In this document: positions 10,536 through 30,363 of the stretch, piece after piece
Position numbering within the stretch: position 1 is the first letter of the stretch
Layout of the letters: every line of letters starts with the position of its first letter
Assembly (NCBI GenBank): GCA_015163855.1
Contig: JAAOIK010000031.1
Location: 1-35,480, forward strand
Source of the DNA: Pseudobdellovibrionaceae bacterium
GTDB lineage: Bacteria > Bdellovibrionota > Bdellovibrionia > Bdellovibrionales > UBA1609
Direction: 5' to 3'
Length of the DNA: 35,480 nucleotides
Program-made: the position numbers and the translations under genes
Notes under the pieces: model-generated
Seen by the model: only the letters and a program-made list of their open reading frames with translations
Told to the model about the DNA's origin: nothing
Database searches by the model: none

Positions 10536-10545
10536 AATGCCCTTT

Positions 10546-11133
10546 TTAAAATTCGGATTGCTTAACTTCCACAGCTCCAAATTGATTAAAAATCTGATTA
10601 AGTTCTTTAGCTCGTCCTTTAATTTCTTCTTCAGGAATAAATATTGCAAATTTATGGCTAGTGATATCTGGGTCTAAAATAACAGGATTAACACTAGGTA
10701 ATCCATTAATAAAAAACATTAAAGCCACCGAACCTAAAGCTGCAAATAAAATAGTTAACTCGAAAATAATAGGTATAAAAGCAGCAAAAGACCACATTGG
10801 TTTACCACCAATATTTAATGGCCAATTCACTACAGCAACCCACCAAGTAAACCAAATACCAAAAGCACAACCTGTTAAACCTAAAAAGAAAGTTGCCCAA
10901 GGAATAAAAGAACGAGGTATTTTCATAGCTTCATCAATTCCATGTAAGGGAAAAGGAGAAACTGCTTCAAAGCCAGAAAAACCATTTTCTGTCATTGCAC
11001 GAGCTGCCTTAACTAACTGGTGATCATCGAGCCAAAAAGCAGCAGTACCTTTTTTTGTTGGACTTTTTATGTAATTCTCTATTTTACAAGCTAAAGCTTT
11101 GGCTTTTTGTATTAATGTATTTTTAGTGCTCAT
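10546..11133 (-). CDS. actD: Alternative complex III subunit ActD (DUF3341)
   Basis: ActD is a small membrane subunit of alternative complex III with no cofactor. The product (195 residues from the chosen start) has an N-terminal soluble part with [14 protein letters not shown], the hallmark of this family, then two hydrophobic segments ([20 protein letters not shown] and a second around [18 protein letters not shown]). I chose the ATG at 11131-11133 over one 15 bases upstream, because GTGGGG lies at a suitable distance. It overlaps the end of actC by 11 bases, implying translational coupling. Confidence 0.9.
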
Positions 11134-12475
11134 TATCGTGCCCCACATTTAATACTGTTTTGATTTCTGACATAGAAATAGAAGGAAACACTCTTAAGTA
11201 AATTAAAAATAACATAAAAAATAAACCAAAACTACCAAAAATGGCTCCTAAATCGTAAGCGCTAAAATGAAACATTCCCCAACTGGATGGTAAAAAATCT
11301 CTATGCAAAGAGGTTACCGTGATTACAAATCTTTCAAACCACATACCAATATTTACAAAAATAGAAATAATAAACATTACTATTAAATGGCGACGCATTT
11401 TTTTAAACCAAAATATTTGCGGAATAATTACATTGCAAGAAACCATAATCCAATAAGACCACCAATAAGGGCCAAAAGCACGGTTAATAAATGCATATTG
11501 TTCTACCCCATGGCCCGAGTACCAAGCAATAAAAAACTCAGAAGCATAAGAATACCCTACTAGTAAGCTAGTGGTCATAATGATTTTATTCATTAACTCT
11601 AAATGATTAACGGTTACATAGTGTTTAAAATGAGGGATTACTATTCGTAAAATAGACATTAAAGTCACCACCATGGCAAAACCAGAAAACACTGCTCCTG
11701 CCACAAAGTAAGGAGGGAAAATAGTCGTATGCCAACCTGGTAATTGCGAAACCGCAAAGTCAAAAGAAACAATACTATGCACCGATAAAACTAAAGGAGT
11801 AGATAAACCAGCAAGTAACATATAAACCATTTCGTAATGGTTCCAATGCTTAGCTGTACCCCTCCAACCCATAGATAAAACACCATATATAAATTTACGC
11901 ACTTTATTTTTTGCTCTATCTCTAACTGTTGCTAAATCGGGAACCAAACCCACATACCAAAAAGTCATGGAAACCAAAGCATAAGTGGATACGGCAAAAA
12001 CATCCCATAATAAAGGAGATCTAAAATTTACCCATAATGGCCCTCGTTGATTAGGGTAAGGTAACAACCAATGAGCTAACCATGGACGACCTGTATGTAG
12101 CAAAGGGAAAATTCCAGCTGTCATTACGGCAAATACCGTCATAGCTTCTGCCGTTCTAGCAATAGAGGTTCTCCATTTTTGTCTAAATAAAAATAAAATA
12201 GCAGAAATTAAAGTTCCTGCATGACCAATACCAATCCAAAAAACAAAAGTAACAATGTCTGTACCCCAACCTACAGGACTATTTACTCCCATTAAACCCA
12301 TTCCATAAACGGCAATTAACCCCATGGTAACTATAAAGTAAAGAAGCAAAGATTTAGAAGCAAATAATAAAGCAAAATAATTTTTTCCAGGAACAGTCTC
12401 TATTAAAGAACAAACATCTTCTGTAACTTGTTTATAATCTTTATTGTCTAAAACTAATACGGGTCGTTTAGCCAT
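11123..12475 (-). CDS. actC: Alternative complex III subunit ActC (NrfD/PsrC-like membrane protein)
   Basis: ActC is a polytopic quinol-binding subunit of the NrfD/PsrC family and docks the iron-sulfur protein ActB. The 450 residues from the chosen start carry about ten transmembrane segments and family features such as [27 protein letters not shown] and [11 protein letters not shown]. The ATG at 12473-12475 is used because GGAGGG is 8 bases upstream, giving MAKRPVLV; an ATG 15 bases upstream overlaps that ribosome-binding site and is unlikely. It overlaps actB by 8 bases. Confidence 0.92.
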
Positions 12476-15400
12476 GATTATTCCCTCCATGATGAGAAGG
12501 TTTTTTTTCGGACTTTAATTGTTTTACATTTTTTACTTTGGCCTGATACCTTAAACCAGGTTTTAAATTTAATTCATGTAATAAAGTATAAGCTCTTTTA
12601 TTTGCAAAATCTTTAGAAACTTTTGTTTTTTTATCATTGCTATCACCAAAGTTAATAGCATTAGTAGGACAAGCTTCCTGACAAGCTGTTTTTACTTCAC
12701 CATCATCAATATGTTTTGTTTTTTTATCAATAGCTTTTTTATGACGAATTTCTGTTACTTTATGCAAACAGAAAGAACATTTTTCCATTACCCCTCTATC
12801 ACGAACAGTAACTTCTGGATTTAAAGACATCTCTAAAGGAGTACTTAGTTGAGTAAAATCAAACCAATTAAATCGACGCACTTTATAAGGGCAGTTATTT
12901 GCACAATAACGAGTACCCACGCAACGATTGTAAATCATATCATTAGTGCCTTCGTCGCCATGAACGGTGGCAGCCACTGGACAAACTGTTTCGCAAGGGG
13001 CTTCGTCACAATGTTGACAAGTTACTGGTTGAAAAACGGTATCGGGGTCTTCTGCTTTTCCAGTATGGTACCTATCAATGCGCAACCAATGCATTGACCG
13101 CCCCTCAGAAACATATTGCTTTCCTACTGTGGGAATATTGTTTTCTGACTGACAAGCAACTACACAACTAGAACAACCCGTACAAGTATTTAAATCAATA
13201 CTCATTCCCCATTTTTGCCCTTTGTATTTTATAGTAGACCATAAAGTGGGTTGTTTTTCACGACTTTCAATGGGTTTAGTTAAAGCTAGCATATCATCTA
13301 AAGTTTTTTCAATAACAATACGACGACCCTGCATACTATGTTGATTTTGCGTGCTAGCTAATAAATTAACTTTACTAGTTTTAGTAATAGAAGCCTTTAA
13401 ACCAGCATAAACTTTTTTATTTTTAAAACTTTTTACTAAAGGAAAAGCATTAACTCCCACAGCTTTTGCCACCGAACCATAAGTTTGCCCATACCCAAGG
13501 GATAAAGACATAGTATTATCCGCCTGACCGGGTTGAATATGTACAGGAACTTTTACTATTTGATCACTTACTTTAAGCTCTACCACTTGGCCTTCTTTTA
13601 AACGCTCTTTTTCTGCCATGGATAAAGGGATAGATAAATAATTATCCCAACAAATTTTTGTTATGGGATGAGGGATCTCTTGTAACCAAGCAACATTGGC
13701 CATACTTCCCCAACGATTAGAAAAACTAGATTCTAAAGAGAGTTCATAACCTTGCTCTGGTAAACTTGGTTTTAACCAAGATAAAGCAGACATATTAAAC
13801 TTACGAACAGAGTTATTGGTTTTGTAGCGTTTGGTATTGCCATCTACAAAACCCTTTTGCAAAAGGTTAAACCAAAAGTCATCAAATTTTTGATTTCCTT
13901 TTTTATATTTAGGATAAAATTGATAACGCCAATAGGTTTTTAAATACTCGTAACTATTTTTGGCCGAAAACGATTTTACTGCTTTAATCCAAGTTATTAA
14001 AGAATCTTCAAAAGCTCTAGTTTCATAAAGTGGTTCAATAGTTGGTTGAATAATAGAGTATAATTGGTTCTGCCCCTCTACATCTCCCCACTTTTCTAAT
14101 GCATTATGATCAGGAGCAATAAAATTACTAATTTTAGCAGTTTCATCTAAGTGCGAGCCTACATAAACTAGTAATTTTAATTTTTTTAGTGCTTTTAATA
14201 ATTTTTCATTACCAGGGTGACTATAAACAAGATTGATATCATGAATAATTAAGCGTTTAACCAATCCAGACTCTATGTCGGCAATTAATTTTGTTAAATC
14301 TTTTTCAGAAGATCTAAAAGAAGAATAATTAGACTCTTTATAATCTACAACACTACCATCATTAGACAGCAATGTGTTTAAAAAATTGGCAGCTATGTGT
14401 AGTAAAGTGGATTCTTGTGTTTCTGTGGAAATTCCTCCCACTATAACTAAACTTTTCTTTCGGTTTTTCCATAACTCATCGGCAATGTTAGACAGTTGTA
14501 ATTTTTTATCTAATTCTACCAAAGACACTTTTTCATTGTAACTGGTTAACACTTGGCGAAGGTTTTTATCCCAAGCATAAGAAGAGCGTTTTTTTACTAT
14601 CACCAATTGGTACAATACTCCCATTAAAATATCTAAATACTCCGAAGCCTTTACTGGATAACGACGATCGGCATTTGCACCCGTTAAGGATAAGCCAGAC
14701 TCAAACACAACTAACTTATTCATATTTTTAGAAGGTTTACGCCCTTGAGCAAAAAAACCAGACATTTCTGTTGGAGCTAAATAAGAACCTAAAAAATCGG
14801 CCCCTACAGAGACAATCATCTTTGCTTTGTTTAAACGGTAATGAGGAACAACTTTATCTCCATAAGAAATTTTTTGTGCTTGCTTTAAAGCATCTAAATT
14901 TTCCACATCCCAAGAGTAATGTTTTGCTTTATAAGTTTGTTTAAAATTATAAAGTAAAGCCCTAGTGCTAGGAGAGGTAATACTTTTTGTTAGCACACCC
15001 ACAGAAGATTTTTTTAATTCTTTAACCACTGTAGCATCTAATTTTTTCCAAGATATTGGCAAGCTATCGTAGTTGGTTTTTTTAGGATTTAATAAATGTT
15101 GTATTGGAGCTTTTAACCTATCAGGATCATATAAAGACAACACACTGGCTGTTGCACGCATAGATATTTTGTTTAAAGCTCCTGGATATTCCGAATTACC
15201 TTCTATTTTTATGGGACGGCCTTCTCTAGTTTTTACAACTACTCCAAAAACCTCAGAGCCATCAACAAAACTAGAAGCATAATGATTAGCCACACCAGGA
15301 ATAACATCGTCTGGTCTTTTAACATAAGGTACAATTTTTTGAGTGGGTTTTCTAGTACAAGCAAAAGTACTTAAAGCTAAACTGGCTCCCATTAGTTTTA

Positions 15401-15608
15401 AAAAATCTCGTCTTGCCCAACCCTCTTCTTTACTTTTATCTATGGGTGTGGATTGAAATTCATCAACCACAGATTGTTGAAACTCTGTAGTGTTTTGTAG
15501 CTCTGCAAGACTCTTCCAATAGCCATTTTCTGGTTCTTCAGAAAGAAGCTGCTCGTTAACCTCTTTACTAGTTGTTGTTTTCTTTAGATGTTTTATTTCT
15601 TCTTTCAT
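12468..15608 (-). CDS. actB: Alternative complex III subunit ActB (molybdopterin-like domain fused to Fe-S domain)
   Basis: ActB is the large periplasm-facing iron-sulfur subunit of alternative complex III. The 1046 residues carry a twin-arginine motif RRDFLKLMG (Arg66-Arg67), displaced from the N-terminus as is usual for ActB, followed by a possible lipidation Cys84 (STFAC). The long middle region resembles a molybdopterin oxidoreductase that in this family carries no molybdenum. The C-terminal quarter contains the iron-sulfur cysteine groups: [37 protein letters not shown], and CSFC with CQEACP, enough for several [4Fe-4S] and [3Fe-4S] clusters. The ATG has AAGGA 8 bases upstream. actA ends 37 bp before it. 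Confidence 0.94.
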
Positions 15609-15645
15609 GAGCTAAGTCCTTTTCCTTTAACCAATGCTTTTTTTA

Positions 15646-16203
15646 TTAATAATGACAAGTTACACAACTAGTGGGTGCATTATTTTCTTTTTTTCTATGG
15701 CAATCTACACACCAACCCATAGATAAACTTTCTTTTTGAAAAACCTCTTCCATAGTTTCCACCTGTCCATGACAGTCTTGGCATTGCTTACCGGCATTAA
15801 TATGTTTGGAATGATCAAACTTTACATAATCTGGTAATAAATGTACTTTTTGCCACTCTACGGGTTGATTATTTATATAATGTTGCGTTAACTTTTGAAT
15901 GATAGGACTGCCGGTTTTAACAGACAAGTGGCAGTTCATACAAATATTTAAACTAGGTACAGTGGCATGCCTGGATTTATCAACATTAGCATGACAATAA
16001 CGACAATCAATTTTGTATTGACCTGCATGTACTTTATGAGAGTAAGGAATAGGTTGAGTAGGTTGGTAATTAATATTATAGCCAAAAACCACTTTATTAT
16101 TGGTTACCAAATAAATCCAAATAAATAAAGCCGCTAGTGTGACCACTAAGACAACAGGAACAAGAACTTTACGAGACATTAAAATATTTTTTTTATTTTT
16201 CAC
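15646..16203 (-). CDS. actA: Alternative complex III subunit ActA (pentahaem cytochrome c)
   Basis: ActA is the membrane-anchored multihaem cytochrome of alternative complex III. Five CxxCH haem sites are visible (Cys67, 88, 141, 165 and 180 of 185 residues), matching the pentahaem type, after one N-terminal transmembrane helix (about 12-32). The reading frame can start at the GTG of 16201-16203 or at the ATG of 16177-16179 (eight residues shorter, beginning MSRKVLV). Neither has a convincing Shine-Dalgarno, so the start is open. It is the first gene of a tightly packed actABCDEF operon. Confidence 0.93.
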   Translation of the reverse strand: MKNKKNILMSRKVLVPVVLVVTLAALFIWIYLVTNNKVVFGYNINYQPTQPIPYSHKVHAGQYKIDCRYCHANVDKSRHATVPSLNICMNCHLSVKTGSPIIQKLTQHYINNQPVEWQKVHLLPDYVKFDHSKHINAGKQCQDCHGQVETMEEVFQKESLSMGWCVDCHRKKENNAPTSCVTCHY

Positions 16204-18187: not shown

Positions 18188-19363
18188 ATGTCTGAAGTTT
18201 TTATTGTTGCTGCAAAACGCACCGCCATTGGAGCTTTTCAAGGTGGGCTTTCGAGTATCCCTGCCACAACGCTAGGAGCAATTAGCATTAAAGCCAGTGT
18301 CGAACAATCTGGTCTTAATCCAGAACTCATTCAAGAATGTATTATGGGCCATGTGCTTAATGCGGGTTGTGGACAAGCCCCTGCCAGACAAGCCGCTTTA
18401 GGAGGAGGACTTTCCGAATCTTGCCAAGCCTTAACTATTAATAAAGTGTGTGGCTCGGGACTAAAAGCCGTTATGCTAGCCACTGATAGTATTTTACTGG
18501 GACACAGCCAAGCTATTGTTGCTGGAGGACAAGAAAACATGAGCCTTAGCCCTCATTTATTAGAAAAATCTCGCTTGGGATTTCGCATGGGGCCTGCAAC
18601 AATGACAGACAGCATGATTAAAGATGGACTATGGGATCCTTATAATAATTTTCACATGGGTAATGCTGCAGAACTTTGTGTAACAAAATATAAAATTTCT
18701 AGACAAGAGCAAGATGACTTTGCCAAACAAAGTTATGAATGGGCTCAAGCCGCGCAAACTAAAGGGTATTTTAAAAAAGAACTTTGCCCTGTGGAAGTAA
18801 AACAACGAAAAGGTAGCAGTATTGTTGAAGAAGACGAAGAACCTAAAAAAGCAAAGTTAGAAAAAATTTCGAGCCTTCGCCCCGCTTTTGACAAAGACGG
18901 TAGCATTACTGCAGCCAATGCCAGTAAATTAAATGACGGAGCCGCAAGTTTTGTTTTAGCCAGTCAAGATTGCGTTAGCAAACAAAACTTAAAACCTTTA
19001 GCAAAAATTATTAGCCAAGCAAGCTTTGCTCAAGACCCAAAATGGTTTACCACAGCCCCTGTTGCCGCAATGAAAAAGGCTTTAAAAAAAGCCAACCTAA
19101 CTATAAATGACATTGATCTTTTTGAAATTAACGAAGCCTTTAGTGTGGTAACTATGGTAGCCATAAAAGATTTAAATATTCCAAGAGAAAAAGTAAATGT
19201 CCATGGTGGAGCCGTGGCACTAGGCCACCCCATTGGTGCCAGTGGTGCAAGAATTTTAAACACTTTAGTTTACGCACTAAAACAACATAATAAAAAATAT
19301 GGAATGGCCTCTTTATGTATTGGAGGAGGAGAAGCCGTAGCAGTGATTGTAGAAAATATTTAA
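18188..19363 (+). CDS. atoB: Acetyl-CoA C-acetyltransferase (thiolase)
   Basis: This thiolase reversibly condenses two acetyl-CoA into acetoacetyl-CoA. The 391 residues have the full catalytic set: Cys88 in NKVCGSGLKAV, His347 in GGAVALGHPIGASG, and Cys377 in CIGGGEA. Length and motifs favour the biosynthetic/acetoacetyl class over the long-chain class. AAGGAG lies 5 bases before the ATG. The Rieske-ThDP gene follows 47 bp downstream on the same strand, so the two are probably cotranscribed. Its product could feed the mevalonate pathway at the left of the window, or work with the CoA-transferase at 26306-27697 in acetoacetate use. Both are inferences. Confidence 0.93.
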   Translation: MSEVFIVAAKRTAIGAFQGGLSSIPATTLGAISIKASVEQSGLNPELIQECIMGHVLNAGCGQAPARQAALGGGLSESCQALTINKVCGSGLKAVMLATDSILLGHSQAIVAGGQENMSLSPHLLEKSRLGFRMGPATMTDSMIKDGLWDPYNNFHMGNAAELCVTKYKISRQEQDDFAKQSYEWAQAAQTKGYFKKELCPVEVKQRKGSSIVEEDEEPKKAKLEKISSLRPAFDKDGSITAANASKLNDGAASFVLASQDCVSKQNLKPLAKIISQASFAQDPKWFTTAPVAAMKKALKKANLTINDIDLFEINEAFSVVTMVAIKDLNIPREKVNVHGGAVALGHPIGASGARILNTLVYALKQHNKKYGMASLCIGGGEAVAVIVENI

Positions 19364-19410: not shown

Positions 19411-21342
19411 ATGAAATGGCATAAAGTTGCAGAAGTTAATTCTTTAAAAGAAGGCAGAGTTCGCTCTGTAGTTATTAATAATAAAACCATTGCCTTAACA
19501 AAGTACAAAGGAAAATATGGTGCTTTAGATAATGCCTGCCCTCACCAAGGTGGACCATTAAGTGAAGGCTCTATTGAAAAAGGTTATCTTCGTTGCCCGT
19601 GGCATGGTTGGGATTTTTGCCCCCACTCTGGAAAATCTCCAGGCAGTCATGACGATGGCATAGCCACTTATCCTGTGGAGGAAAGAGAAGATGGCGTTTA
19701 CATTCAATTAAAAGATAAAGAAAAACCGAAAAAAACCATCAGCGACCTTATGGTAGAAACTTTAACTAACTGGGGAATAGACAGCGTTTTTGGAATGGTA
19801 GGTCACTCTAATTTAGGTTTTGCTTCTGCTTTAGAAAAACAAGAAAAAAATAAAAAATTACGATTTTTTGGAATTCGTCACGAAGGGGCCGCCGCCTTTG
19901 CTTGCTCGGGTTATGCCAAAACCATAGGCAAACCCGCCGCGTGTTTTACTATCGCAGGCCCTGGTGCTACTAATTTACTTACGGGTTTATGGGATGCAAA
20001 AGTAGACCGAGCGCCCGTGTTAGCCTTAACAGGACAAGTTAATACTCAAGTGTTAGGCCCTGGGGCTTTTCAAGAAATTGATTTGCTTTCTGCCTTTGAT
20101 GCGGTTTCTACTTTTAGTCAAACCGTTTTAAAAAGCTCTAACCAAATAGAGTTAGTCAACTTAGCGGTAAAAAATGCCATTCTTAAAAGAGATGTTAGTC
20201 ATTTAATTTTACCAGACGAAGTACAAACCATAGAAGTTAGTGAAAGTGAAAAAGCAGGAACTCCCGAAGGCCGATTACCCAACATGGCCATAGCCCCCGC
20301 TATAGAATCTTTAAACAAAGCGGTAGAGGCTATTAAAAAAAGTAAACGACCATTATTTATTGTGGGCTACGGCGCTCGCTCTGCTATGCCCGATATTATT
20401 CAATATGCAGAAACACTAAATGCCGCAGTCATTACCACTTTTAAAGCAAAGGGCCAAATTTCTGATTCCCATCCTTTAGCGGGAGGGGTGCTGGGAAGAA
20501 GTGGAACTCCTGTGGCCAGTTGGTTAATGAACGAATCCGATTTACTTATTGTTTTAGGATCTTCTTTTTCTAATCATACAGGCATCACTGCGAAAAAAAC
20601 CATTATACAAGTGGATTTTGAACCCATGCAAATTGGAAAATTTCACTCTGTGGATATACCCGTGTTAGGAGATATTGGTGTTACTGTAAAAAGTTTAAGC
20701 AAACTTACTGGTAGCAAAAGCGTAGATATTAAAAAAGAAGTTTTAGAACGCTGGAATATTTGGAGAGCCGAAAAAACTTCTCGCGCTAAAGATGATAGAA
20801 AAAAAGGAGTGGGTTCGGCGGCTTTATTTAAAACTTTGCAAGAAAAAATTCCAGAAGACGCAGTAATACCTGTAGATGTGGGTAATAATGCATATTCTTT
20901 TGGAAGGTACTTTGAATGTAAAAACCAAACGATTTTAATGTCTGGATACTTAGGTTCCATTGGGTTTGCCTTCCCTGCTGCTATGGGAGCATGGGCTGCG
21001 GTAAAGGGGAAAAGAAAAGTGGTTTCTGTGAGTGGTGATGGTGGCTTTGGCCAGTATATGAATGAACTTACCACTGCGGTAAAATATAAAATGAATATTA
21101 CTCATATTTTATTAAATAATAATGAATTGGGAAAAATTTCTAAAGAACAACTGGCTGGGGAATGGAATATTTGGCAAACCTCCCTACAGAATCCAAACTT
21201 TGCAAAGTACGCCCAAAACTGTGGAGCTTTAGGCATACAAGTAAAAACTATTAACGAATTAGAAGAAGCTTTAGAACAGGCCTTAAATTATACACAAGGC
21301 CCGTCGCTAATAGAAGTTATAACCGATTCTAAACTGATTTAA
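19411..21342 (+). CDS. Rieske [2Fe-2S] domain fused to a thiamine-diphosphate enzyme (POX/acetolactate synthase type)
   Basis: The first about 100 residues are a complete Rieske ferredoxin domain (Cys43, His45, Cys62, His65; CPHQGGPL and CPWHGWDF). After a short linker, residues about 108-643 form a full three-domain thiamine-diphosphate enzyme: activating Glu158 in GIRHEGAAAF, AGPGATNLLTGL, a central domain with PLFIVGYGAR, and the ThDP/Mg motif GDG (542-544) with NNN at 569-571. The family includes pyruvate oxidase/quinone dehydrogenase, acetolactate synthase and oxalyl-CoA-type decarboxylases; the substrate is unknown. The ATG at 19411 has GGAG 4 bases upstream; the frame extends back into the thiolase gene but has no support there. 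The fusion implies electrons from 2-oxoacid oxidation go to the Rieske centre, which is inferred. No membrane-binding tail of PoxB type is seen. Confidence 0.88.
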   Translation: MKWHKVAEVNSLKEGRVRSVVINNKTIALTKYKGKYGALDNACPHQGGPLSEGSIEKGYLRCPWHGWDFCPHSGKSPGSHDDGIATYPVEEREDGVYIQLKDKEKPKKTISDLMVETLTNWGIDSVFGMVGHSNLGFASALEKQEKNKKLRFFGIRHEGAAAFACSGYAKTIGKPAACFTIAGPGATNLLTGLWDAKVDRAPVLALTGQVNTQVLGPGAFQEIDLLSAFDAVSTFSQTVLKSSNQIELVNLAVKNAILKRDVSHLILPDEVQTIEVSESEKAGTPEGRLPNMAIAPAIESLNKAVEAIKKSKRPLFIVGYGARSAMPDIIQYAETLNAAVITTFKAKGQISDSHPLAGGVLGRSGTPVASWLMNESDLLIVLGSSFSNHTGITAKKTIIQVDFEPMQIGKFHSVDIPVLGDIGVTVKSLSKLTGSKSVDIKKEVLERWNIWRAEKTSRAKDDRKKGVGSAALFKTLQEKIPEDAVIPVDVGNNAYSFGRYFECKNQTILMSGYLGSIGFAFPAAMGAWAAVKGKRKVVSVSGDGGFGQYMNELTTAVKYKMNITHILLNNNELGKISKEQLAGEWNIWQTSLQNPNFAKYAQNCGALGIQVKTINELEEALEQALNYTQGPSLIEVITDSKLI

Positions 21343-21375: not shown

Positions 21376-21418
21376 AAATAAACTTATTTAATTTTGTGTG
21401 AAATAAACTTATTTAATT
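21376..21418. repeat. 18-bp direct repeat between convergent genes
   Basis: AAATAAACTTATTTAATT occurs identically at 21376-21393 and 21401-21418, a 25-base period. Each copy contains an AAATAA/TTATTT inverted repeat, so it may form weak A/T hairpins on both strands and serve as a bidirectional termination region. The second copy covers the stop codon of the Spondin_N-like gene. Confidence 0.8.
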
Positions 21419-22104
21419 CTTTCAAAAATAAATTTTCCAACATAGCGGGCATTATTTCTGTGTTTACCGTTTACAAAATTTGTATCTCCTGGTCTAGAAG
21501 TTAATAAACTAATAACCCCGTTAGAGTCTTCGTCTGCAGAAGTAAACACTCTTCCCAAGTCTGTTCCTGCGTCATAAAGGGGAAGGTTTACTTCTAAGCT
21601 TTCTACCCACTGGCCCCTGCTATTTAATAAAGATAAATCATGCACACCCACAAACCAATCAGGGCTTGGTGCTAACATACTAATTAAAGTCACTAAAGGA
21701 TGAGGACGATTAATATCAAATTCAAAAGAAATATTTCCATTCCCTTTTCCAAAGCTTAATCCGCCTCCACTTAATAAAAACTCTGCCACATTATTGCTTT
21801 TTTGAATTTCAATTTCGTTTATGAAAGTCGTTTTAGATCCCGTTTCTGCTACTATTTCTATTCCTTTACTTGCCTGTTTTCCTTCTCTCCAAAAATTTAC
21901 ACGGCTATTATGTGTAGCGCCTACTAAACCAGAAAAATGATCGTTTCCTTCGGGAAAGTTAGTTGAAAATCTCGATTTCGTCCAATTAGCTACAAAAGTT
22001 ACTCGATAAGTTGCATCTGCGTTAGCATCTCTATCAGAAAAGTTCATAGCCTCACAAGAAGTTATAAAAAATAACAATACAAAAATAATTTTCACAATAT
22101 GCAT
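21409..22104 (-). CDS. Spondin_N-like lipoprotein
   Basis: The N-terminus is a lipoprotein signal (KIIFVLLFFITSCEA, predicted lipidated Cys17), so the product is probably membrane-anchored facing the periplasm or outside. The mature part resembles the Spondin_N fold: YRVTFVANWT at the start, HFSGLVGATHN, the hallmark APSPDWFVGV, a segment with acidic DAGTDLG, and a C-terminal GKFIFERI. Spondin_N domains occur in animal matrix proteins and are scattered in bacteria; a calcium-binding or adhesion role is suspected in the family but not shown here. AAGGGG lies 4 bases before the ATG. It stands alone, convergent with the Rieske-ThDP gene. Confidence 0.8.
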   Translation of the reverse strand: MHIVKIIFVLLFFITSCEAMNFSDRDANADATYRVTFVANWTKSRFSTNFPEGNDHFSGLVGATHNSRVNFWREGKQASKGIEIVAETGSKTTFINEIEIQKSNNVAEFLLSGGGLSFGKGNGNISFEFDINRPHPLVTLISMLAPSPDWFVGVHDLSLLNSRGQWVESLEVNLPLYDAGTDLGRVFTSADEDSNGVISLLTSRPGDTNFVNGKHRNNARYVGKFIFERIK

Positions 22105-22193: not shown

Positions 22194-23804
22194 TTAAGGT
22201 TTTACTCCCGCAAAAGGCACTCCAGATAATTCGTGCATACTTTTTTTCCATGTAACCAAGTCTTCTAAGGCAAATTGGTTTAAATGGGTATGCCCACAAG
22301 CGCGAGCTAATATCTTCATTAAGTGTACACTAGAGTCTAAATAATTTTGTAAGCGCTTAGCCGAGGCTTGCACAATTAAGCGTTCGCGCAAATGCACTTT
22401 TTGTGTAGCAATTCCAACAGGACAGTTGTTACTATGACAAGCTCTCATGCCCAAACAACCAATGGCCTGTAATGCCGAGTTAGATAAAGCAATAGCGTCT
22501 GCACCCATGGCCAAAGCTTTTGTAAAATCTTCTGCCACTCGCAAACCTCCCGTTATAACTAAACTTACATCTTTACACTTTAAACTATCTAAATGTCTTC
22601 GTGCCCTGCCCAAAGCGGGTATAGTTGGTACCGAAATATTATCTCTAAACAAAGTTGGCGCAGCACCTGTTCCCCCACCTCTTCCATCTAAAATAATATA
22701 ATCTACTCCCACCTCTAAAGCCGCATCGATATCTTTTTCAATGTGTTGAGCCGATAATTTATAACCAATGGGAATTCCTCCCGTGGCTTGTTTAACTTGA
22801 TCGGCAAAAGCTTTAATTTCTTTCGTCTTAGTCCAATCAGGAAAACGCGCAGGAGAAATAGCATCTTCTCCCACCTGTAAACCCCTTACTTCTGCAATTT
22901 TTCCTACTACTTTATTTCCTGGGAGGTGTCCGCCTGTTCCTGTTTTTGCACCTTGCCCTCCCTTAAAGTGAAAAGCTTGGCATTGTTTTACCTTGTCCAT
23001 ATTAAAACCAAAACGACCCGAAGCTAATTCATAAAAATAACGCGAATTAGCCGCTTGTTCTTCGGGCAACATTCCTCCCTCGCCGCTACAAATACCTGTT
23101 CCAGATTGCTCGGCCCCTAAAGCTAAAGCCACTTTTGCTTCTTCCGACAAAGCTCCAAAACTCATGTCAGAAATAAAAAGAGGGATTTTTAGCACTAAAG
23201 GTTTTTTTGCCTTAGGCCCAATCACCACTTCTGAACCCACAGGAACATCATCCAATTGGGGTGCCTTAGATAATTGTGCAGTTATAAATTGAATATCTTT
23301 CCAACTGGGTAGCTCGGTAAGGGGAACTCCCATTGCCGACATAGCTCCATGGTGACCTAGTTTTTTTAATCCATTTTTAGCTAAAGCTTGAATTTGACTA
23401 TTAAATGGTTCTTCGGGAGTGCCGTGAAAATCTTGATAATTGCCTAAGTATTCTTCTCTATTATAAGGTTGAGGGTTTTTTTCTTGCCATTGAAAAATTT
23501 CTTCTTCATCGACCCAAACAGAATCTCCATCTACTCCACCAGTAAATTTATGTAATGTTTCGCTATTGTCATACTCACTAACGCCCGTGTCGTAACGGTA
23601 ATCCCAATTATGAACACCACAAATTAAATTATCTCCCTTAATATGCCCATCAGCTAATAGTGCGCCTCTATGATGACATCTTCCATATAAAACAGAAATA
23701 TTTTTATCATAACGAACAATAACTAAATCGACATTGGCTACTAAAGCATAGTAAGGTTGACGATCTTTAATTTCTGAATATTTAGCTATTACTTTTTTTT
23801 TCAT
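22194..23804 (-). CDS. Rieske domain fused to glutamate-synthase-like FMN domain
   Basis: Residues 1-95 are a Rieske domain (Cys43, His45, Cys62, His65; CHHRGALL and CGVHNWDY). Residues about 145-510 match the FMN-binding domain of glutamate synthase: FISDMSFGALSEEA, GTGICSGEGGM, GGQGAKTGTGGHLPG, DGRGGGTGAAP, and CLGMRACHSNNCPVG, which carries the cysteines that bind a [3Fe-4S] cluster in that family. The glutaminase domain is absent, so it is not a classical GltB. A flavin/iron-sulfur oxidoreductase is a fair description; the substrate is unknown. It is the last gene of the five-gene Rieske operon, 48 bp after the previous gene, with AAAAGGA before its ATG. Confidence 0.88.
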   Translation of the reverse strand: MKKKVIAKYSEIKDRQPYYALVANVDLVIVRYDKNISVLYGRCHHRGALLADGHIKGDNLICGVHNWDYRYDTGVSEYDNSETLHKFTGGVDGDSVWVDEEEIFQWQEKNPQPYNREEYLGNYQDFHGTPEEPFNSQIQALAKNGLKKLGHHGAMSAMGVPLTELPSWKDIQFITAQLSKAPQLDDVPVGSEVVIGPKAKKPLVLKIPLFISDMSFGALSEEAKVALALGAEQSGTGICSGEGGMLPEEQAANSRYFYELASGRFGFNMDKVKQCQAFHFKGGQGAKTGTGGHLPGNKVVGKIAEVRGLQVGEDAISPARFPDWTKTKEIKAFADQVKQATGGIPIGYKLSAQHIEKDIDAALEVGVDYIILDGRGGGTGAAPTLFRDNISVPTIPALGRARRHLDSLKCKDVSLVITGGLRVAEDFTKALAMGADAIALSNSALQAIGCLGMRACHSNNCPVGIATQKVHLRERLIVQASAKRLQNYLDSSVHLMKILARACGHTHLNQFALEDLVTWKKSMHELSGVPFAGVKP

Positions 23805-23852: not shown

Positions 23853-24617
23853 TTATAAATTAATGCGCTTAATGCTGTTTTTTTTCATTTTATAAAACCA
23901 TAAGTCACCCCATCTTTGCACCTCTCCTTGAAGTTGAACTTGGTCTCCAACAAAAGGTAAAATGGATTCTAATACAGCTTGACCATTTTCATCTAATAAT
24001 AAATAAAATCTTTCTTTAAATAATTGATCTTGTACTAATAGCGCAGGAGGAATTCCTCCCTTAATGCATAAAGTGGCGCAAGCTTTATGCGTTTTGCCAA
24101 GGCCGGGTTTCATAGCGCCAACATAACACTTTGGGTCTATCACTTCGCCTTGCAAAGTTTTTAAACCAAAACTTTTTTTAAAAATAGTTTTAGAAATAGT
24201 GGGTTTGGTTTTTAAAGCAACAATGGCCTCTTTTCCATCTAAAATGTTAAAAACAAAGCGACCTTCATAGTGAGTCATAATACCAGTTAATTTTACCCAT
24301 TGATTGTGCAAGCCTTTTACTCGATTTTTAATTCCTCTTTTATCCATGGCTGTTAAAATGGCCGTGTAAACTTTGGATTGGTGTTTAAATCGAGCTAAAA
24401 CATAAGGCTTAGTTAATAACCAAGCCTTTACAGTAATGGCTGTTTTTCCTGTGGGGTCCCAACCTTTTCCCTTATTAGGCGCATTTTTATAACTGGATAA
24501 AACATAACTCAATACCAATAGGGCTACAAAAAGAAAGGGTAAAAATAGTTTTAAAAAGCGCGAATACTTTTTGGGAAGAGCTAGGTAACCAACAAAAAAA
24601 GTTTGTTCTTTGTTCAT
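23853..24617 (-). CDS. Membrane-anchored protein with conserved-looking Cys/His motif
   Basis: The 254 residues start with a short cytoplasmic segment and one transmembrane helix (about 22-40), followed by a periplasmic domain. A striking motif lies at 157-193: GEVIDPKCYVGAMKPG then HKACATLC, giving Cys164, His177, Cys180 and Cys184, a possible metal or haem site. The rest looks like two beta-rich barrels (residues 60-135 and 195-250; QLQGEVQRWGDLWFY resembles an OB-like strand pattern). I recall similar GxxxDxKCYxGxMxPG sequences beside Rieske proteins in other bacteria but cannot name a family. It sits between the two Rieske genes, 9 bp after the ferric-reductase fusion. AAGGA precedes the ATG. 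Confidence 0.7.
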   Translation of the reverse strand: MNKEQTFFVGYLALPKKYSRFLKLFLPFLFVALLVLSYVLSSYKNAPNKGKGWDPTGKTAITVKAWLLTKPYVLARFKHQSKVYTAILTAMDKRGIKNRVKGLHNQWVKLTGIMTHYEGRFVFNILDGKEAIVALKTKPTISKTIFKKSFGLKTLQGEVIDPKCYVGAMKPGLGKTHKACATLCIKGGIPPALLVQDQLFKERFYLLLDENGQAVLESILPFVGDQVQLQGEVQRWGDLWFYKMKKNSIKRINL

Positions 24618-24626
24618 CTTTTTCCT

Positions 24627-25706
24627 TTATGTATTTTTTAAACAGGGCTTAGTTATGTTTTCTTTATCAAAAGAAGAAGGGTCAATATACACTCCTTCGC
24701 CCTCTGGTTGATAAAATACATACACCATATTATTTTCTATTTTTGTTTTGTAAGTAGCTACTTTTTCTTTAAAAGGAGGAGGGCTTTGCCCGTCTTCGGG
24801 GCGATACTGCCAACCATGCCAAGGGCAAGTAATACAACCATCTATCACCCGCCCCTCACTTAAAGGCCCACCTTGGTGTGCACACAAATCGGTAACGGCA
24901 CTAAAACCTTTTTCGTGTTTAAATACCGCAATTCTTTCGCCAGTGGGTGCTTTAACCATTTTCGCTTTATTCATTGTAAAATTACTAACATCACACACTT
25001 GTAACCAATTATCTTTTTGATTAAATATTTGTTTATCTTTACTGTGTTCTTTCCAAAAAGTTAGTAAGTGTGCACTAATCACCGCAGTTACTCCCACTCC
25101 CATTATCCAAACATAAATAAAATCTTGTTCGGATTGCATAACCCCTAAAGCCACATGAATAACCACAAAAGCATATACAAAATAAATGCCCATATGAATA
25201 GACTTCCAAACATCACGACCTAAGTTTTTTTGCCAAAAATCATGACTAATAGAAGCTAATACCAATAATACAAACAATGCTAGTAAACCAAATAGCTCGA
25301 AAGGAAAAGAAGTAAAACTAGTATATTCTGAGCTACTAGTTAATAAGGATAAAAAAGGGTTTATACTTCCAAAACTGTGATAAAAAAAAGTCACTAAAGC
25401 GCCATGAAAAAGGGCTAAAAAAGCGGTCATCACTCCAAGGTGTCTACGGTTATACAACAAAACCGCAAAAATAGAATTTAATCGAGCAAGAGGGCCAATT
25501 AATAAAATAATATGCAAAAGAATTAAAGAACAACTACCAAAAGCTCTAATTAAAATAATTATACTGCTAAACTGTTGGTCTTTAGGAAAAGTGATCGTAC
25601 TAAATACAGAATACGCAGCTAAGTAAATAACAATAAAAGCTAAAGCAATAAAATCATAATATTTTTTTTGCTTGTTCCAATGTACGGGAAAATATTGTGT
25701 ACTCAT
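24627..25706 (-). CDS. Ferric-reductase-like membrane domain fused to Rieske domain
   Basis: Residues about 15-220 contain six or so transmembrane helices with histidines at 65, 89, 101, 171 and 184, the pattern of ferric-reductase/MsrQ-like haem b proteins. Residues about 233-335 form a Rieske domain (Cys275, His277, Cys294, His297; CAHQGGPLSEG and CPWHGWQY). The Rieske part shares HQGGPLSEG and CPWHGW with that of the Rieske-ThDP enzyme, suggesting common ancestry. The protein could carry electrons across or along the membrane between haem b and a [2Fe-2S] centre. Its ATG is 2 bases after the stop of the 48-residue membrane protein, so translation is coupled. Confidence 0.87.
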   Translation of the reverse strand: MSTQYFPVHWNKQKKYYDFIALAFIVIYLAAYSVFSTITFPKDQQFSSIIILIRAFGSCSLILLHIILLIGPLARLNSIFAVLLYNRRHLGVMTAFLALFHGALVTFFYHSFGSINPFLSLLTSSSEYTSFTSFPFELFGLLALFVLLVLASISHDFWQKNLGRDVWKSIHMGIYFVYAFVVIHVALGVMQSEQDFIYVWIMGVGVTAVISAHLLTFWKEHSKDKQIFNQKDNWLQVCDVSNFTMNKAKMVKAPTGERIAVFKHEKGFSAVTDLCAHQGGPLSEGRVIDGCITCPWHGWQYRPEDGQSPPPFKEKVATYKTKIENNMVYVFYQPEGEGVYIDPSSFDKENITKPCLKNT

Positions 25707-26305: not shown

Positions 26306-27022
26306 ATGAAAAACTCCTCCTCTACAACATCTAAAGTGTATGAAAATGCCGAAGCAGCCATTGCAGATATTACTAGTAATACAAATATATTAGTTGGTGG
26401 ATTTGGACTTTGTGGAATTCCCGAAAATTTAATTAATGCTTTAAGTAAGAAAAAAGAAATAACCGGACTAACTTGTATTTCTAATAATGCGGGAGTAGAT
26501 GATTTTGGCTTAGGCTTACTATTAAAAAATAAACAAATTAAAAAAATGATAGCCAGTTATGTTGGAGAAAATGATTTATTTGCTCAACAATACCTTGATA
26601 AAGAGCTGGAGGTAGAATTTACCCCTCAAGGCACTTTAGCAGAAAAAATTAGAGCAGGAGGCGCTGGCATTGCGGGTTTTTACACCCCTACCGGAGTAGG
26701 AACTTTAGTGGCTCAAGGTAAAGAGGTAAAACAATTTAACGGACGCGATTATCTTTTAGAAACGGCCTTAACGGGAGACTTTGCTTTAATTAAAGCTTGG
26801 AAGGGCGACACCTTTGGTAATTTAATTTTTAATAAAACGGCCAGAAATTTTAACCCTATGATGGCCATGGCAGGAAAGATTAGCATTGTAGAGGTAGAAG
26901 AACTTGTTTCTGTGGGCGAATTAGACCCCGACCACATTCACACCTCGGGAGTATTTGTACAACGCATTTTTCAAGGTAAAAACTACGAAAAAAGAATTGA
27001 ACAAAAAACCATTAGCCAATAA
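26306..27022 (+). CDS. scoA: 3-oxoacid CoA-transferase subunit A
   Basis: Subunit A of a class I CoA-transferase that moves CoA between succinyl-CoA (or acetyl-CoA) and acetoacetate. The 238-residue length is normal. Visible features are [13 protein letters not shown] (31-43), [33 protein letters not shown], and [17 protein letters not shown] lies 7-8 bases before the ATG. Subunit B follows 24 bp downstream. Succinyl-CoA:3-oxoacid versus acetate/butyrate-acetoacetate specificity (atoD) is not resolved by sequence alone. Confidence 0.93.
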
Positions 27023-27046
27023 TTACATAACTACTATAAGGAAAAT

Positions 27047-27697
27047 ATGCCGTTAACTAAAGAACAAATTGCACAAAGAATATCTAAAGAAGTGAAAAAT
27101 GGTTTTACGGTAAATTTAGGAATTGGCATTCCCACACTAGTGGCCAATTATATTACCCCCGAACAAAATGTATTTTTACAAAGCGAAAATGGCTTATTAG
27201 GAATTGGCCCCTTCCCCACCAAAGACAAAGTGGATGCCGATTTAATTAATGCCGGAAAGCAAACTGTAACCTCTACTGCTGGTGCTAGTTATTTTTCTTC
27301 CGCAGATAGCTTTGCCATGATACGCGGAGGTCATATTGATTTAAGCGTGTTAGGGGCTATGCAAGTGGATGAAAACGGCGACATTGCCAATTGGATGATT
27401 CCCAACAAAATGATTAAAGGTATGGGAGGGGCTATGGATTTAGTAGCCGGGTCAAAAAATGTTATTGTGGCCATGCAACATACCGACAGAAAAGGAAATC
27501 CTAAAATTTTAAAAAAATGTAACCTCCCCTTAACAGGATTAAATTGTATTCATAAAATCGTTAGTGACTTGGCGGTAATGAGCATCACCTCTAAAGGCAT
27601 TGTTGTGGAAGAAATCATAGAGGGTATGAGTTTTGAAGAATTACAAAATGTAACAGAGGCAAAGTTAACTGCGAGCAAAGATATTAAGGCTATTTAA
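27047..27697 (+). CDS. scoB: 3-oxoacid CoA-transferase subunit B
   Basis: Subunit B carries the catalytic glutamate that forms the enzyme-CoA thioester: Glu47 in LQSENGLLG. Other features are NLGIGIPTLVANY (23-35), IRGGHIDLSVLGAMQVD and GSKNVIVAMQHTDR. The 216 residues are typical for the bacterial two-subunit form. AAGGAAA precedes the ATG. Together with the thiolase at 18188 it completes a route from acetoacetate to two acetyl-CoA. Confidence 0.94.
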   Translation: MPLTKEQIAQRISKEVKNGFTVNLGIGIPTLVANYITPEQNVFLQSENGLLGIGPFPTKDKVDADLINAGKQTVTSTAGASYFSSADSFAMIRGGHIDLSVLGAMQVDENGDIANWMIPNKMIKGMGGAMDLVAGSKNVIVAMQHTDRKGNPKILKKCNLPLTGLNCIHKIVSDLAVMSITSKGIVVEEIIEGMSFEELQNVTEAKLTASKDIKAI

Positions 27698-27735: not shown

Positions 27736-27954
27736 ATGCCTTCTAATTTTACTTTCAATACCTATTTAACCATCACGGGCTTATCTGGTGATGAAAATAT
27801 AAAAATGCGATTAATAGAGTTGGGCTTTATTGTTGGGCATAGTTTTAAAATTATTCAACAGTTAAGTTTTGGAGAGCCTTTTATTGTAGAGGTTCAAGGC
27901 ACCACTGTTGCCTTACGCAAAAGGGAATTAAAATGTCTTCAAATTCAAAAATAA
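27736..27954 (+). CDS. feoA: Ferrous iron transport protein A
   Basis: FeoA is a small cytoplasmic SH3-like partner of the FeoB ferrous-iron transporter. The 72 residues from the chosen ATG include LSGDENIKMRLIELGFIVGH and the FGEPFIVEVQGTTVALRK segment typical of the family. The reading frame could extend to a GTG at 27718, but that lies inside the predicted -10 and palindrome, so the ATG at 27736 is preferred. It overlaps feoB by 22 bases. Confidence 0.9.
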   Translation: MPSNFTFNTYLTITGLSGDENIKMRLIELGFIVGHSFKIIQQLSFGEPFIVEVQGTTVALRKRELKCLQIQK

Positions 27955-29828
27955 TAGAAAAAAATATTCCTTCTGTTTTAATGATTGGTTCTCCCAACGC
28001 AGGAAAAAGCACTTTATTTAATAAACTTACCGACAAAAGTGCAAAAACTACCAACTACCCTGGCACCACAGTAGATTATACCACAGGTTATGCTGGATCT
28101 AACTTTAATGTAAAAATTAAATTTTTAGATACTCCTGGTATTTATTCTTTGCACCCAAAAACTGCGGAAGAAGAAATTACTCATCAACTACTTTTTAAAA
28201 ATACAGAAAATCAAAGTAAGAATTTAATTCTTTCTGTTGTGGACTCTACCCAATTTGTAAGACAAGTTTTAATTACTCAACAACTGATAGAGCAAGGTTT
28301 TTCGGTGATTGTAGTACTTAGCATGGTGGATATTTTAGAAAAAAATAACATTACTATTAATGTAAAAGCTCTTTCTGAAAAATTAAAATGCCCTGTGGTA
28401 CCTGTAAATATAAATAATGATGCCGATATTAAAGTTTTAATAAACCAATTACACCACCAAACTATTAATTCTAATTTAGGGCCTACACAAAAAAAAGCTT
28501 TATGGAAAGAAGAAGATTATTTTAACAATTTTTCTCGCTTTCAAAAAATAGAAAAAAATCTTTTTTCCTCCTCTGTAAAAAACTATTCTGCCAATATAGA
28601 TAAATATTTGCTTCACCCCATTTTAGGCCTAGTGTTTTTTATAAGTATTATGACTTTGCTTTTTGCCTCTATTTTTTGGATAGCTACACCCTTAATTGAT
28701 TCCATAGATTTATTATTTGCTAACTTGGGCGAATTTATTGTCCAAATTTCCCCCGATAGTTTATGGACCGCTTTTTTAGGAGAGGGATTAATTTCTGGAG
28801 TGGGGGCATTTATGGTTTTTGTACCTCAAATTGCCATTTTATTTCTTGGTTTAGGTTTACTAGAAGACAGTGGGTATTTAGCTAGGGCCTCTAGTCTTGT
28901 TGATAAACCTTTGTCTAAATTAGGAATGAATGGTCGTTCTTTTGTTCCCATATTATCTTCGATGGCCTGTGCTGTTCCTGCTATGATGGCCGCCAGAACT
29001 ATACCTAATAAAAAAGAAAAATTTTTAACTTTATTTATTTTGCCCTTAATGACATGCAGTGCCCGCATACCTGTTTATGCTTTAATTATTAGTTTTTTAT
29101 TTTTTGGAGAGTCGGTTTTTTTAGCAGGTTTTATTTTAGCACTGCTGTACTTTTCAGGGCTGGTAATAGGTGGCTTAACCGCTAGTATTATTAATCGTTT
29201 TTTATCACAAAAACAAAATTCCTTTTTTATTATGGAGCTTCCCTCTTATAAATTGCCTAATTTTAAAAAAGTAGTTAAACAAATGTTAATCCGCACAAAT
29301 AGTTTTATTAAAAATGCTGGCCCTATTATTTTAGTGTTGTCTATTATTATCTGGGGAGCCTCTACTTTTCCCAATTATAAAATAAAAAATACTAATGAAC
29401 GATTTCATAAAAGTTATGCTGCACAAGTGGGAAAAGTGATCGAACCCATTTTTAAACCTATGGGTGCAGATTGGCGAGTGGGCTTAGGTATTTTATCCTC
29501 CTTTGCGGCTCGCGAAGTTTTTGTATCTACCTTGGCCAGTGTATTTAACATTACCGAAGAACACGATACCGACATACACCAATCTTTATTAAGCACAATG
29601 AAAACCGCACGCTTTACTAATGCAGATGGCAGTGTTGGAAAATTAATTTTTACACTACCTTCTGTTTTAGCTTTATTAATTTTTTTTATGATTGCCCTTC
29701 AATGTATGGCCACAGTTAGTATAGCCAAAAATGAATTTGGTAACTGGAAGGTAGCTTTAATACAATTGTTTAGTTTTAATATTGTGGCCTATGTGCTTGC
29801 TGTAATAACTTATCAAGGGTTAAGCTAA
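27933..29828 (+). CDS. feoB: Ferrous iron transporter FeoB
   Basis: FeoB is an inner-membrane Fe(II) transporter with an N-terminal G domain. Visible are G1 GSPNAGKS (19-26), G2 NYPGTT (41-46), G3 DTPG (66-69), then the membrane part with GVGAFMVFVPQIAIL and the gate-type motif SMACAVPAMMAARTI. The 631 residues fit the shorter FeoB class. The G4 motif, normally NxxD, reads SMVD at 130-133, and the G5 region (VPVNINNDADI) lacks the usual Ser-Ala, so nucleotide specificity may differ. AAAGGGA precedes the ATG inside feoA. The stop overlaps by one base a short duplicated open frame that leads to the regulator gene. Confidence 0.94.
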   Translation: MSSNSKIIEKNIPSVLMIGSPNAGKSTLFNKLTDKSAKTTNYPGTTVDYTTGYAGSNFNVKIKFLDTPGIYSLHPKTAEEEITHQLLFKNTENQSKNLILSVVDSTQFVRQVLITQQLIEQGFSVIVVLSMVDILEKNNITINVKALSEKLKCPVVPVNINNDADIKVLINQLHHQTINSNLGPTQKKALWKEEDYFNNFSRFQKIEKNLFSSSVKNYSANIDKYLLHPILGLVFFISIMTLLFASIFWIATPLIDSIDLLFANLGEFIVQISPDSLWTAFLGEGLISGVGAFMVFVPQIAILFLGLGLLEDSGYLARASSLVDKPLSKLGMNGRSFVPILSSMACAVPAMMAARTIPNKKEKFLTLFILPLMTCSARIPVYALIISFLFFGESVFLAGFILALLYFSGLVIGGLTASIINRFLSQKQNSFFIMELPSYKLPNFKKVVKQMLIRTNSFIKNAGPIILVLSIIIWGASTFPNYKIKNTNERFHKSYAAQVGKVIEPIFKPMGADWRVGLGILSSFAAREVFVSTLASVFNITEEHDTDIHQSLLSTMKTARFTNADGSVGKLIFTLPSVLALLIFFMIALQCMATVSIAKNEFGNWKVALIQLFSFNIVAYVLAVITYQGLS

Positions 29829-29877
29829 TGAACACTATAAAAACTTACCAAGGATTAAGCTAATGAGCACTATACAA
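29808..29877 (+). repeat. 35-bp tandem duplication at the feoB-regulator junction
   Basis: Two adjacent 35-base units (29808-29842 and 29843-29877) match at 31 of 35 positions. Each contains the last codons of feoB (TYQGLS and stop), a TAATG stop/start overlap and the first codons of the regulator. The copy in between creates an 11-codon open frame (29828-29863, MNTIKTYQGLS) coupled by TAATG on both sides. Confidence 0.9.
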
Positions 29878-30363
29878 ACACCAATTACTCACTCCACTGC
29901 CCATTATTTGTGTGCCATTCATAAGCTACATGAAGATAATGGCTATGTACGCATGGTAGATATTTCTAAACTTTTAAATTTTTCTAGAGGCAGTGTTTCG
30001 ATTGCCATTAAAAATTTAAAAAAGAAAAATTTAGTAGAAGAAGACAAAAATGGATTTTTAAATTTATCTAAAGTTTCTCACGAAAAAGTGCACGAAATTT
30101 TAGCCAACAAAACTTTATTGTATTACTTTTTAAAAAACTTTTTGGGCGTAACTAAAAATACTGCCGAATTGGATTCGTGCTTGATGGAGCATGTACTAAG
30201 TGCCGAATCACAAAAAAAATTATTTTTATATATGAAAAAAATGCAAACGGCCGAAAAAGAAAACGGTAATAAATCTTGTGTAAAAACCAATTTAGATTTT
30301 TTAAATACCTGCTCTAATTTTAAGCAGTTTAAAGAAAGTCAGAAAGGGGACACTTTTATTTAA
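29863..30363 (+). CDS. DtxR/MntR-family metal-dependent regulator of the feo operon
   Basis: The 166 residues have an N-terminal winged helix-turn-helix (about 30-65, with ISKLLNFSRGSVSIAIKNLKKKNLV) and a dimerisation/metal domain with HEKVHEIL (His73, His77) and ELDSCLMEHVLS (Glu102, Cys106, Glu109, His110), the DtxR/IdeR-type metal ligands. It lacks the C-terminal SH3-like domain of DtxR, resembling MntR in length, and ends with a lysine-rich tail that has two more cysteines (139 and 150). Cys at the ligand position favours iron sensing. As third gene after feoAB it likely represses the operon when iron is sufficient. AAGGA within the duplicated feoB end serves as its ribosome-binding site. 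Confidence 0.85.
   Translation: MSTIQTPITHSTAHYLCAIHKLHEDNGYVRMVDISKLLNFSRGSVSIAIKNLKKKNLVEEDKNGFLNLSKVSHEKVHEILANKTLLYYFLKNFLGVTKNTAELDSCLMEHVLSAESQKKLFLYMKKMQTAEKENGNKSCVKTNLDFLNTCSNFKQFKESQKGDTFI

Follow-up and report, generated by a model that had tools for sequence, protein, structure and literature searches.

The window analysed here, a 35,480-nucleotide stretch of a Pseudobdellovibrionaceae genome, raises the question of whether a single protein joins a Rieske [2Fe-2S] domain to a ThDP enzyme and, if so, where such an enzyme would send its electrons. The 1,932 bases at 19411-21342 (+) form one uninterrupted frame encoding 643 aa, with GGAG a few bases 5' of the ATG at 19411. The same ORF is also open from an ATG at 19315, overlapping the 3' end of the thiolase gene; homologues align from W3. 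Pfam placed a Rieske domain (PF00355; E 4e-18; 65.5 bits against a cut-off of 20.3) at residues 2-76 (19414-19638, +), and its ligands C43, H45, C62 and H65 (CxH...CxxH) are invariant among aligned homologues. The N, M and C domains of a ThDP enzyme occupy residues 109-636 (19735-21318, +), as identified by Pfam (TPP_enzyme_N 109-226, TPP_enzyme_M 301-429, TPP_enzyme_C 489-636; all above curated cut-offs), alignments and comparison with reference enzymes; POR_N and POR domains were absent from the Pfam result. Landmarks of this part include the catalytic Glu158, an FAD-site signature at ~319-412, GDG at 542-544, N570 and the family-specific K575. Across an alignment of 76 homologues, E158, G542-D543-G544 and N570 are invariant; N570 is replaced by Asp in all four haloarchaeal copies. 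The sequence-only reading of this DNA, which had proposed an intact N-terminal Rieske domain ahead of an intact ThDP enzyme in one protein, is thus borne out by the Pfam domains and the single open frame, and Glu158, GDG 542-544 and the Asn cluster at 569-571 lie where it had put them.

Relatives of the protein showed that the fusion is widespread. One scan of species genomes returned 169 candidate relatives, and the best 80 of the 169 were examined; these covered essentially the whole query, with 58-66% identity in the best segment, and came from about a dozen phyla that included Pseudomonadota, Acidobacteriota, Nitrospirota, Nitrospinota, Gemmatimonadota, Planctomycetota, Myxococcota, Balneolota, Calditrichota, Chlorobiota and Poribacteria. 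Most of the homologue loci derive from metagenome-assembled genomes, many of them incomplete. The frame was open across the match in 79 of these best 80, and the Rieske ligands were present in 79/79 (one with longer spacing). A genome of the same genus encodes the fusion at 91% identity, and one of the same family at 62%. Searching plasmids with tblastn added full-length Rieske-ThDP proteins on four haloarchaeal plasmids (55-58% identity) and on one Mycobacteroides abscessus plasmid (51%); the archaeal copies lie on complete plasmid sequences of cultured haloarchaea. Together, the 79 open homologues and the plasmid copies were 51-67% identical to the window protein. The possibility that the Rieske part is encoded separately, through a frameshift or a sequencing join, falls away in view of the 79 uninterrupted frames and the same-genus copy. 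Just two broken copies speak for an artefact, L113 and L197 (G439), each from a single assembly and the latter with its Rieske and ThDP parts in different frames; they are either assembly errors or decayed genes. Against them stand the open homologues and the complete haloarchaeal plasmids, and we reject an assembly or frameshift artefact, whose probability we regard as negligible.

Within individual phyla the enzyme is patchily distributed. It was detected in 3 of the 369 genomes of the window's phylum and, for the phylum of one Holophagae locus (Acidobacteriota by record title), in 16 of 297 genomes at 66-100% identity (one being the query's own genome). Those 16 frames are long enough to include the Rieske domain; after them, identity drops to 35% in the next best match. 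Ordinary pyruvate oxidases and acetolactate synthases likewise share ~35% identity or less with the Rieske-ThDP enzyme, and no close Rieske-less relative was seen in the limited samples of genomes searched. No relatives were found in viral contigs, and a viral origin was rejected on that ground. Among open-licence PMC papers we found no published description of the fusion, or of its pairing with the glutamate-synthase-like (GltB) protein described below. The statement in the sequence-only reading that no characterised enzyme has this architecture agrees with our searches, in which neither a characterised homologue nor such a paper (open-licence PMC) was found.

The predicted fold is that of the pyruvate oxidase group. 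An AlphaFold2 model of the protein (mean pLDDT 91.5, pTM 0.90) had PoxB (3eya) as its best PDB match in Foldseek (TM 0.92 by target); AHAS and POX came next. When residues were compared with a reference set (POX, PoxB, IlvI, IlvB, Gcl, Oxc), the FAD-site positions matched L. plantarum POX at the motif level (GxGAR, T343, R363, D402, K410, H412), and on the roles that we assume for these residues from POX-type families the enzyme is predicted to bind FAD. It had been suggested that electrons leave through iron-sulfur instead of FAD. An Fe-S exit is still the natural reading; replacement of FAD by the Rieske domain was rejected, as the POX-like FAD-site residues are retained. Because this signature is kept, transfer from FAD to Rieske in series appears likelier than a Rieske cluster acting instead of FAD. 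Ser and Tyr near bc1-type Rieske clusters raise the cluster potential, and because Trp67 and Phe69 take these positions here, the cluster of the ThDP enzyme is expected to have a low potential.

E. coli PoxB, a pyruvate:quinone oxidoreductase, and C. glutamicum PQO share with the Rieske-ThDP enzyme the three-domain ThDP fold, the catalytic Glu, the GDG motif and the FAD-site signature. However, PoxB (28% identity) has no Rieske domain and carries a C-terminal membrane-binding tail, whereas the chain described here ends at PoxB residue ~532 and the tail is absent. Phosphate-dependent POX from L. plantarum, whose electron acceptor is oxygen, is nearest in its FAD-site residues (~26% identity) but also lacks a Rieske domain. 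The invariant Lys575 stands at the position of PoxB Phe465 and POX Phe479, a Phe that lies between ThDP (HE-ThDP) and FAD in those enzymes. Acetohydroxyacid (acetolactate) synthase has the same fold (~27-29% identity to IlvI and IlvB), whereas the Rieske-ThDP enzyme combines POX-like FAD-site residues with the fusion and falls below the NCBIfam cut-offs. Pyruvate:ferredoxin oxidoreductase (PFOR)-type enzymes also couple ThDP chemistry to an Fe-S outlet, a likeness in concept; they and other 2-oxoacid:ferredoxin oxidoreductases belong to a different protein family, and here the Rieske domain is fused and the FAD site kept. The window's genome also encodes E1_dh-type and separate POR_N-type proteins, so the Rieske-ThDP enzyme would be an accessory route, and the idea that it is the sole pyruvate-oxidising route of a reduced genome found no support.

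With regard to substrate, the best-scoring NCBIfam model was pyruvate oxidase PRK08611 (419.9 bits, below the cut-off of 742), and the AHAS equivalog model TIGR00118 scored 311.4 bits (cut-off 538.35). Placement among POX and AHAS by tree was rejected, the reference branches being too long to trust. Family-specific residues fall in active-site motifs (H132-S133-N134, Q548-Y549, H389-T390 and K575) and are also kept in the archaeal and mycobacterial copies. The architecture is that of a POX-type flavoenzyme, yet the family tests failed, and the substrate may be another one. Pyruvate is a possible but doubtful substrate, and the need for caution in assuming it comes from H132, Q548-Y549 and K575, which are family-specific and may point to a different reaction.

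The 1.24-Mb genome has three Rieske domains, all of them within the window, and two of these belong to fusions that the sequence-only reading had left out. One is a conserved neighbour of the ThDP gene: a 536-aa Rieske-fused FMN/3Fe-4S glutamate-synthase-like enzyme at 22194-23804 (-), identified by its Pfam Rieske and Glu_synthase (PF01645; 292 bits) domains, for which glutamate synthases ranked first in Foldseek. It retains the 3Fe-4S cysteines C450, C456 and C461, together with E242, K287 and R307, which match what we take to be the 2-oxoglutarate site of ferredoxin-dependent glutamate synthase; His stands for Gln at 293. Pfam detected neither a glutamine amidotransferase nor a C-terminal GXGXG domain, and the N-terminus is the Rieske domain. 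The ThDP and GltB-like genes converge in the window, and between them lies a Spondin_N-domain gene (21409-22104, -; Pfam) that is kept in the sister genome.

In some lineages two CDGSH domains take the place of the partner's Rieske domain, and some ThDP homologues carry two CDGSH domains, or CDGSH-Fer4_19-CDGSH, ahead of the Rieske domain. Such extra upstream Fe-S adaptors are what would be expected of an electron relay. CDGSH-Glu_synthase proteins have been noted earlier, in a study that records combinations of CDGSH with Glu_synthase domains and with Rieske_2 domains and whose main text does not mention thiamine enzymes (PMC5859297); these proteins correspond to a CDGSH-adaptor version of the Rieske-GltB partner. 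CDGSH occurred on the partner in 4/8 typable pairs with a CDGSH-bearing ThDP enzyme and in 1/~50 otherwise, a correlation that is tied to phylogeny. A matched CDGSH swap in both enzymes was rejected, considering that CDGSH on the ThDP enzyme marks one clade and yields only one independent pair.

To evaluate the association, genes were clustered around the best 80 homologues, the window and two relatives. The Rieske-GltB family was present in 38 of these loci (a raw count that ignores relatedness), and it lay within three genes and on the same strand in 32 of the 35 loci measured, again with relatedness ignored. Among 49 ThDP-positive genomes, most of them selected for lacking an adjacent partner, 36 encode a GltB relative (E < 1e-130, ~61-92% identity); the other 13, many of them incomplete, gave no partner orthologue. 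Across 147 genomes of one gammaproteobacterial order, the ThDP enzyme was found in 9, Rieske-GltB in ~23 and both in 7, against ~1.4 expected. Rieske-GltB often occurs there without the ThDP enzyme, and strict dependence of the Rieske-bearing GltB on the ThDP enzyme was rejected. In the window's phylum, Rieske-GltB was seen only in the two genomes of the window's genus, both ThDP-positive; eight other genomes have Rieske-less GltB forms, and those typed are CDGSH forms. Of 72,556 plasmids, only three gave matches covering 99% of the Rieske-GltB query, and all three are among the five ThDP-positive plasmids. That the pairing spans phyla and reaches archaea speaks against simple descent as its only reason. 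Its recurrence in many bacterial phyla and in haloarchaea points to two self-wired metabolic enzymes that may form a hitherto undescribed pair, and functional coupling of the ThDP enzyme with its GltB-like partner is in our view probable.

Other neighbours recur less widely. The third Rieske fusion is a ferric-reductase-type transmembrane protein of 359 aa with a C-terminal Rieske domain (24627-25706, -; Pfam Ferric_reduct and Rieske), a possible membrane electron acceptor or donor, which was present in six of the clustered loci and, besides the window, lies beside the ThDP enzyme in L051, L068, L071, L092 and L100. It is accompanied by a 254-aa protein of unassigned family with no Pfam match (23853-24617, -). 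This family (cluster 11) is present in L051, L071 and L092, and beside or near ferric-reductase-Rieske genes in L191, L197, L200 and L205; these two genes co-occur in Balneolota, Planctomycetota, Pseudomonadota and further loci. DUF5996 proteins were found in 30 loci of several phyla, within three genes and on the same strand as the ThDP gene in 30/30 (relatedness ignored). These loci span L036-L113 (e.g., L061:11265-12125), and no paper mentioning DUF5996 was found among open-licence PMC papers. A Na+/H+ exchanger (PF00999) occurs in 19 loci, within three genes and on the same strand in 16 of the 18 measured, also ignoring relatedness. On a Halorarius plasmid the ThDP gene is followed directly by an exchanger and a potassium-channel gene, and an exchanger lies near the ThDP gene of the Mycobacteroides plasmid. 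A possible tie to homeostasis of salt or pH is suggested by the gene neighbourhood only.

The best overall explanation, in our view somewhat probable, is a cytosolic ThDP/FAD oxidoreductase with a Rieske outlet that works in a module with the GltB-like partner. It builds on features read directly from the loci (the fusion, cofactor motifs that remain intact, conservation in both Bacteria and Archaea, a genetic partner that is likewise conserved, and a chain that lacks the PoxB tail); FAD occupancy, the substrate, the direction of electron flow and exchange between the partners are what we infer. A 2-oxoacid-like substrate would be decarboxylated or otherwise cleaved at ThDP, and two electrons would pass to FAD. 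From there they would move one at a time to the enzyme's own N-terminal low-potential [2Fe-2S] cluster, and not to oxygen or to membrane quinone. The module would comprise this enzyme and the glutamate-synthase-like partner, which is fused to Rieske or, in certain lineages, to CDGSH; some genomes would add the ferric-reductase-type membrane protein ending in a Rieske domain. These domains may let the members of the module share an electron carrier or swap electrons directly. That the ThDP enzyme is an oxidoreductase delivering electrons through its Rieske domain we consider fairly probable.

It is possible to read the same loci differently. The ThDP part could catalyse non-redox chemistry, as an acetolactate-synthase-like carboligase or a diketone-hydrolase-like C-C hydrolase that holds a structural FAD, and its Rieske domain could be a redox sensor or docking domain. 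In AHAS and Gcl the bound FAD takes no net part in redox chemistry, AHAS models also score well here, K575 replaces the oxidases' Phe, and the GH.N motif at H132 is common to an IolD-like protein. Nonetheless, the top family score is a pyruvate oxidase, the top fold match is PoxB, the FAD-site residues are POX-like, and whatever is added at the N-terminus, on the partner too, is always an Fe-S domain of the electron-transfer type; we consider this reading unlikely. An alternative that keeps the Rieske outlet has it export to a generic Rieske or ferredoxin reductase, with the GltB association reflecting a shared setting (e.g., salt or pH stress) and no electron coupling. The exchanger and DUF5996 neighbours, including exchangers beside the archaeal and near the mycobacterial plasmid gene, and the many genomes with the partner alone are consistent with it, but the partner bears the same kind of N-terminal electron-transfer domain; we consider a mere shared setting rather unlikely, if less so than a non-redox enzyme.

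Both Rieske-fused enzymes might also oxidise in series. The GltB-like enzyme would convert glutamate to 2-oxoglutarate, for example, and the ThDP enzyme would turn 2-oxoglutarate or another dicarboxylic 2-oxoacid into the decarboxylated acid, with K575 or H132 binding the distal carboxylate and both enzymes feeding the ferric-reductase-Rieske protein. The invariant K575 and H132 in active-site motifs, the partner's 2-oxoglutarate-site residues and the adjoining ferric-reductase-Rieske gene in several phyla would fit such a scheme. However, glutamate synthases normally run reductively, the membrane protein is present in few loci (6) and the substrate is guessed from single residues, and we regard serial oxidation as improbable. 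The fullest version of the favoured module is itself speculative and unlikely to hold in every part: a mobile, cross-domain two-enzyme system in which a Rieske-wired ThDP/FAD 2-oxoacid oxidase would hand electrons over by direct Rieske-to-Rieske transfer, needing neither NAD(P)H nor free ferredoxin, to a Rieske/CDGSH-wired glutamate-forming FMN enzyme. In marine bacteria and haloarchaea this system would be tied to Na+/H+ antiport and to stress from salt or pH.

If the Rieske outlet is real, a ThDP flavoenzyme with its own Rieske domain would be a new electron route from 2-oxoacids, between PoxB (quinone) and PFOR (ferredoxin). The recurrent pairing in Bacteria and Archaea points to a widespread uncharacterised redox module, present on plasmids of cultured haloarchaea, and DUF5996 gains a genetic context. 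In the plasmid records examined, the pair carries no annotation beyond 'thiamine pyrophosphate-binding protein' and 'glutamate synthase-related protein'.

The acetyl-CoA C-acetyltransferase-type thiolase (18188-19363, +) had been offered as a functional clue. It adjoins the ThDP gene only in the window and the sister genome and is distant in L090, and it was rejected as a member of the system, its neighbourhood not being conserved. Together with a CoA-transferase pair (26306-27697, +) it might serve acetoacetate use, a possible function that is not conserved with the ThDP gene. The window also holds an alternative complex III-like cluster (ActD, NrfD, molybdopterin/4Fe-4S protein, cytochrome c, multiheme cytochrome; 9978-16203, -) and a FeoB-type iron transporter followed by an iron-dependent repressor (27933-30363, +), the latter two genes adjoining the Fe-S enzyme cluster. 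In Candidatus Thiodiazotropha (L049, L055, L113), DinB/FGE-sulfatase (EgtB-like) and histidine-specific methyltransferase (EgtD-like) genes follow the cluster. On the haloarchaeal plasmids (L240-L243, L246), nearby genes encode MFS transporters, PAS sensor kinases, DsrE and TauE/SafE proteins and MerA-like or dihydrolipoyl-dehydrogenase-like flavoproteins; an M20 hydrolase gene follows the GltB gene, and together they may form a set for redox or sulfur stress.
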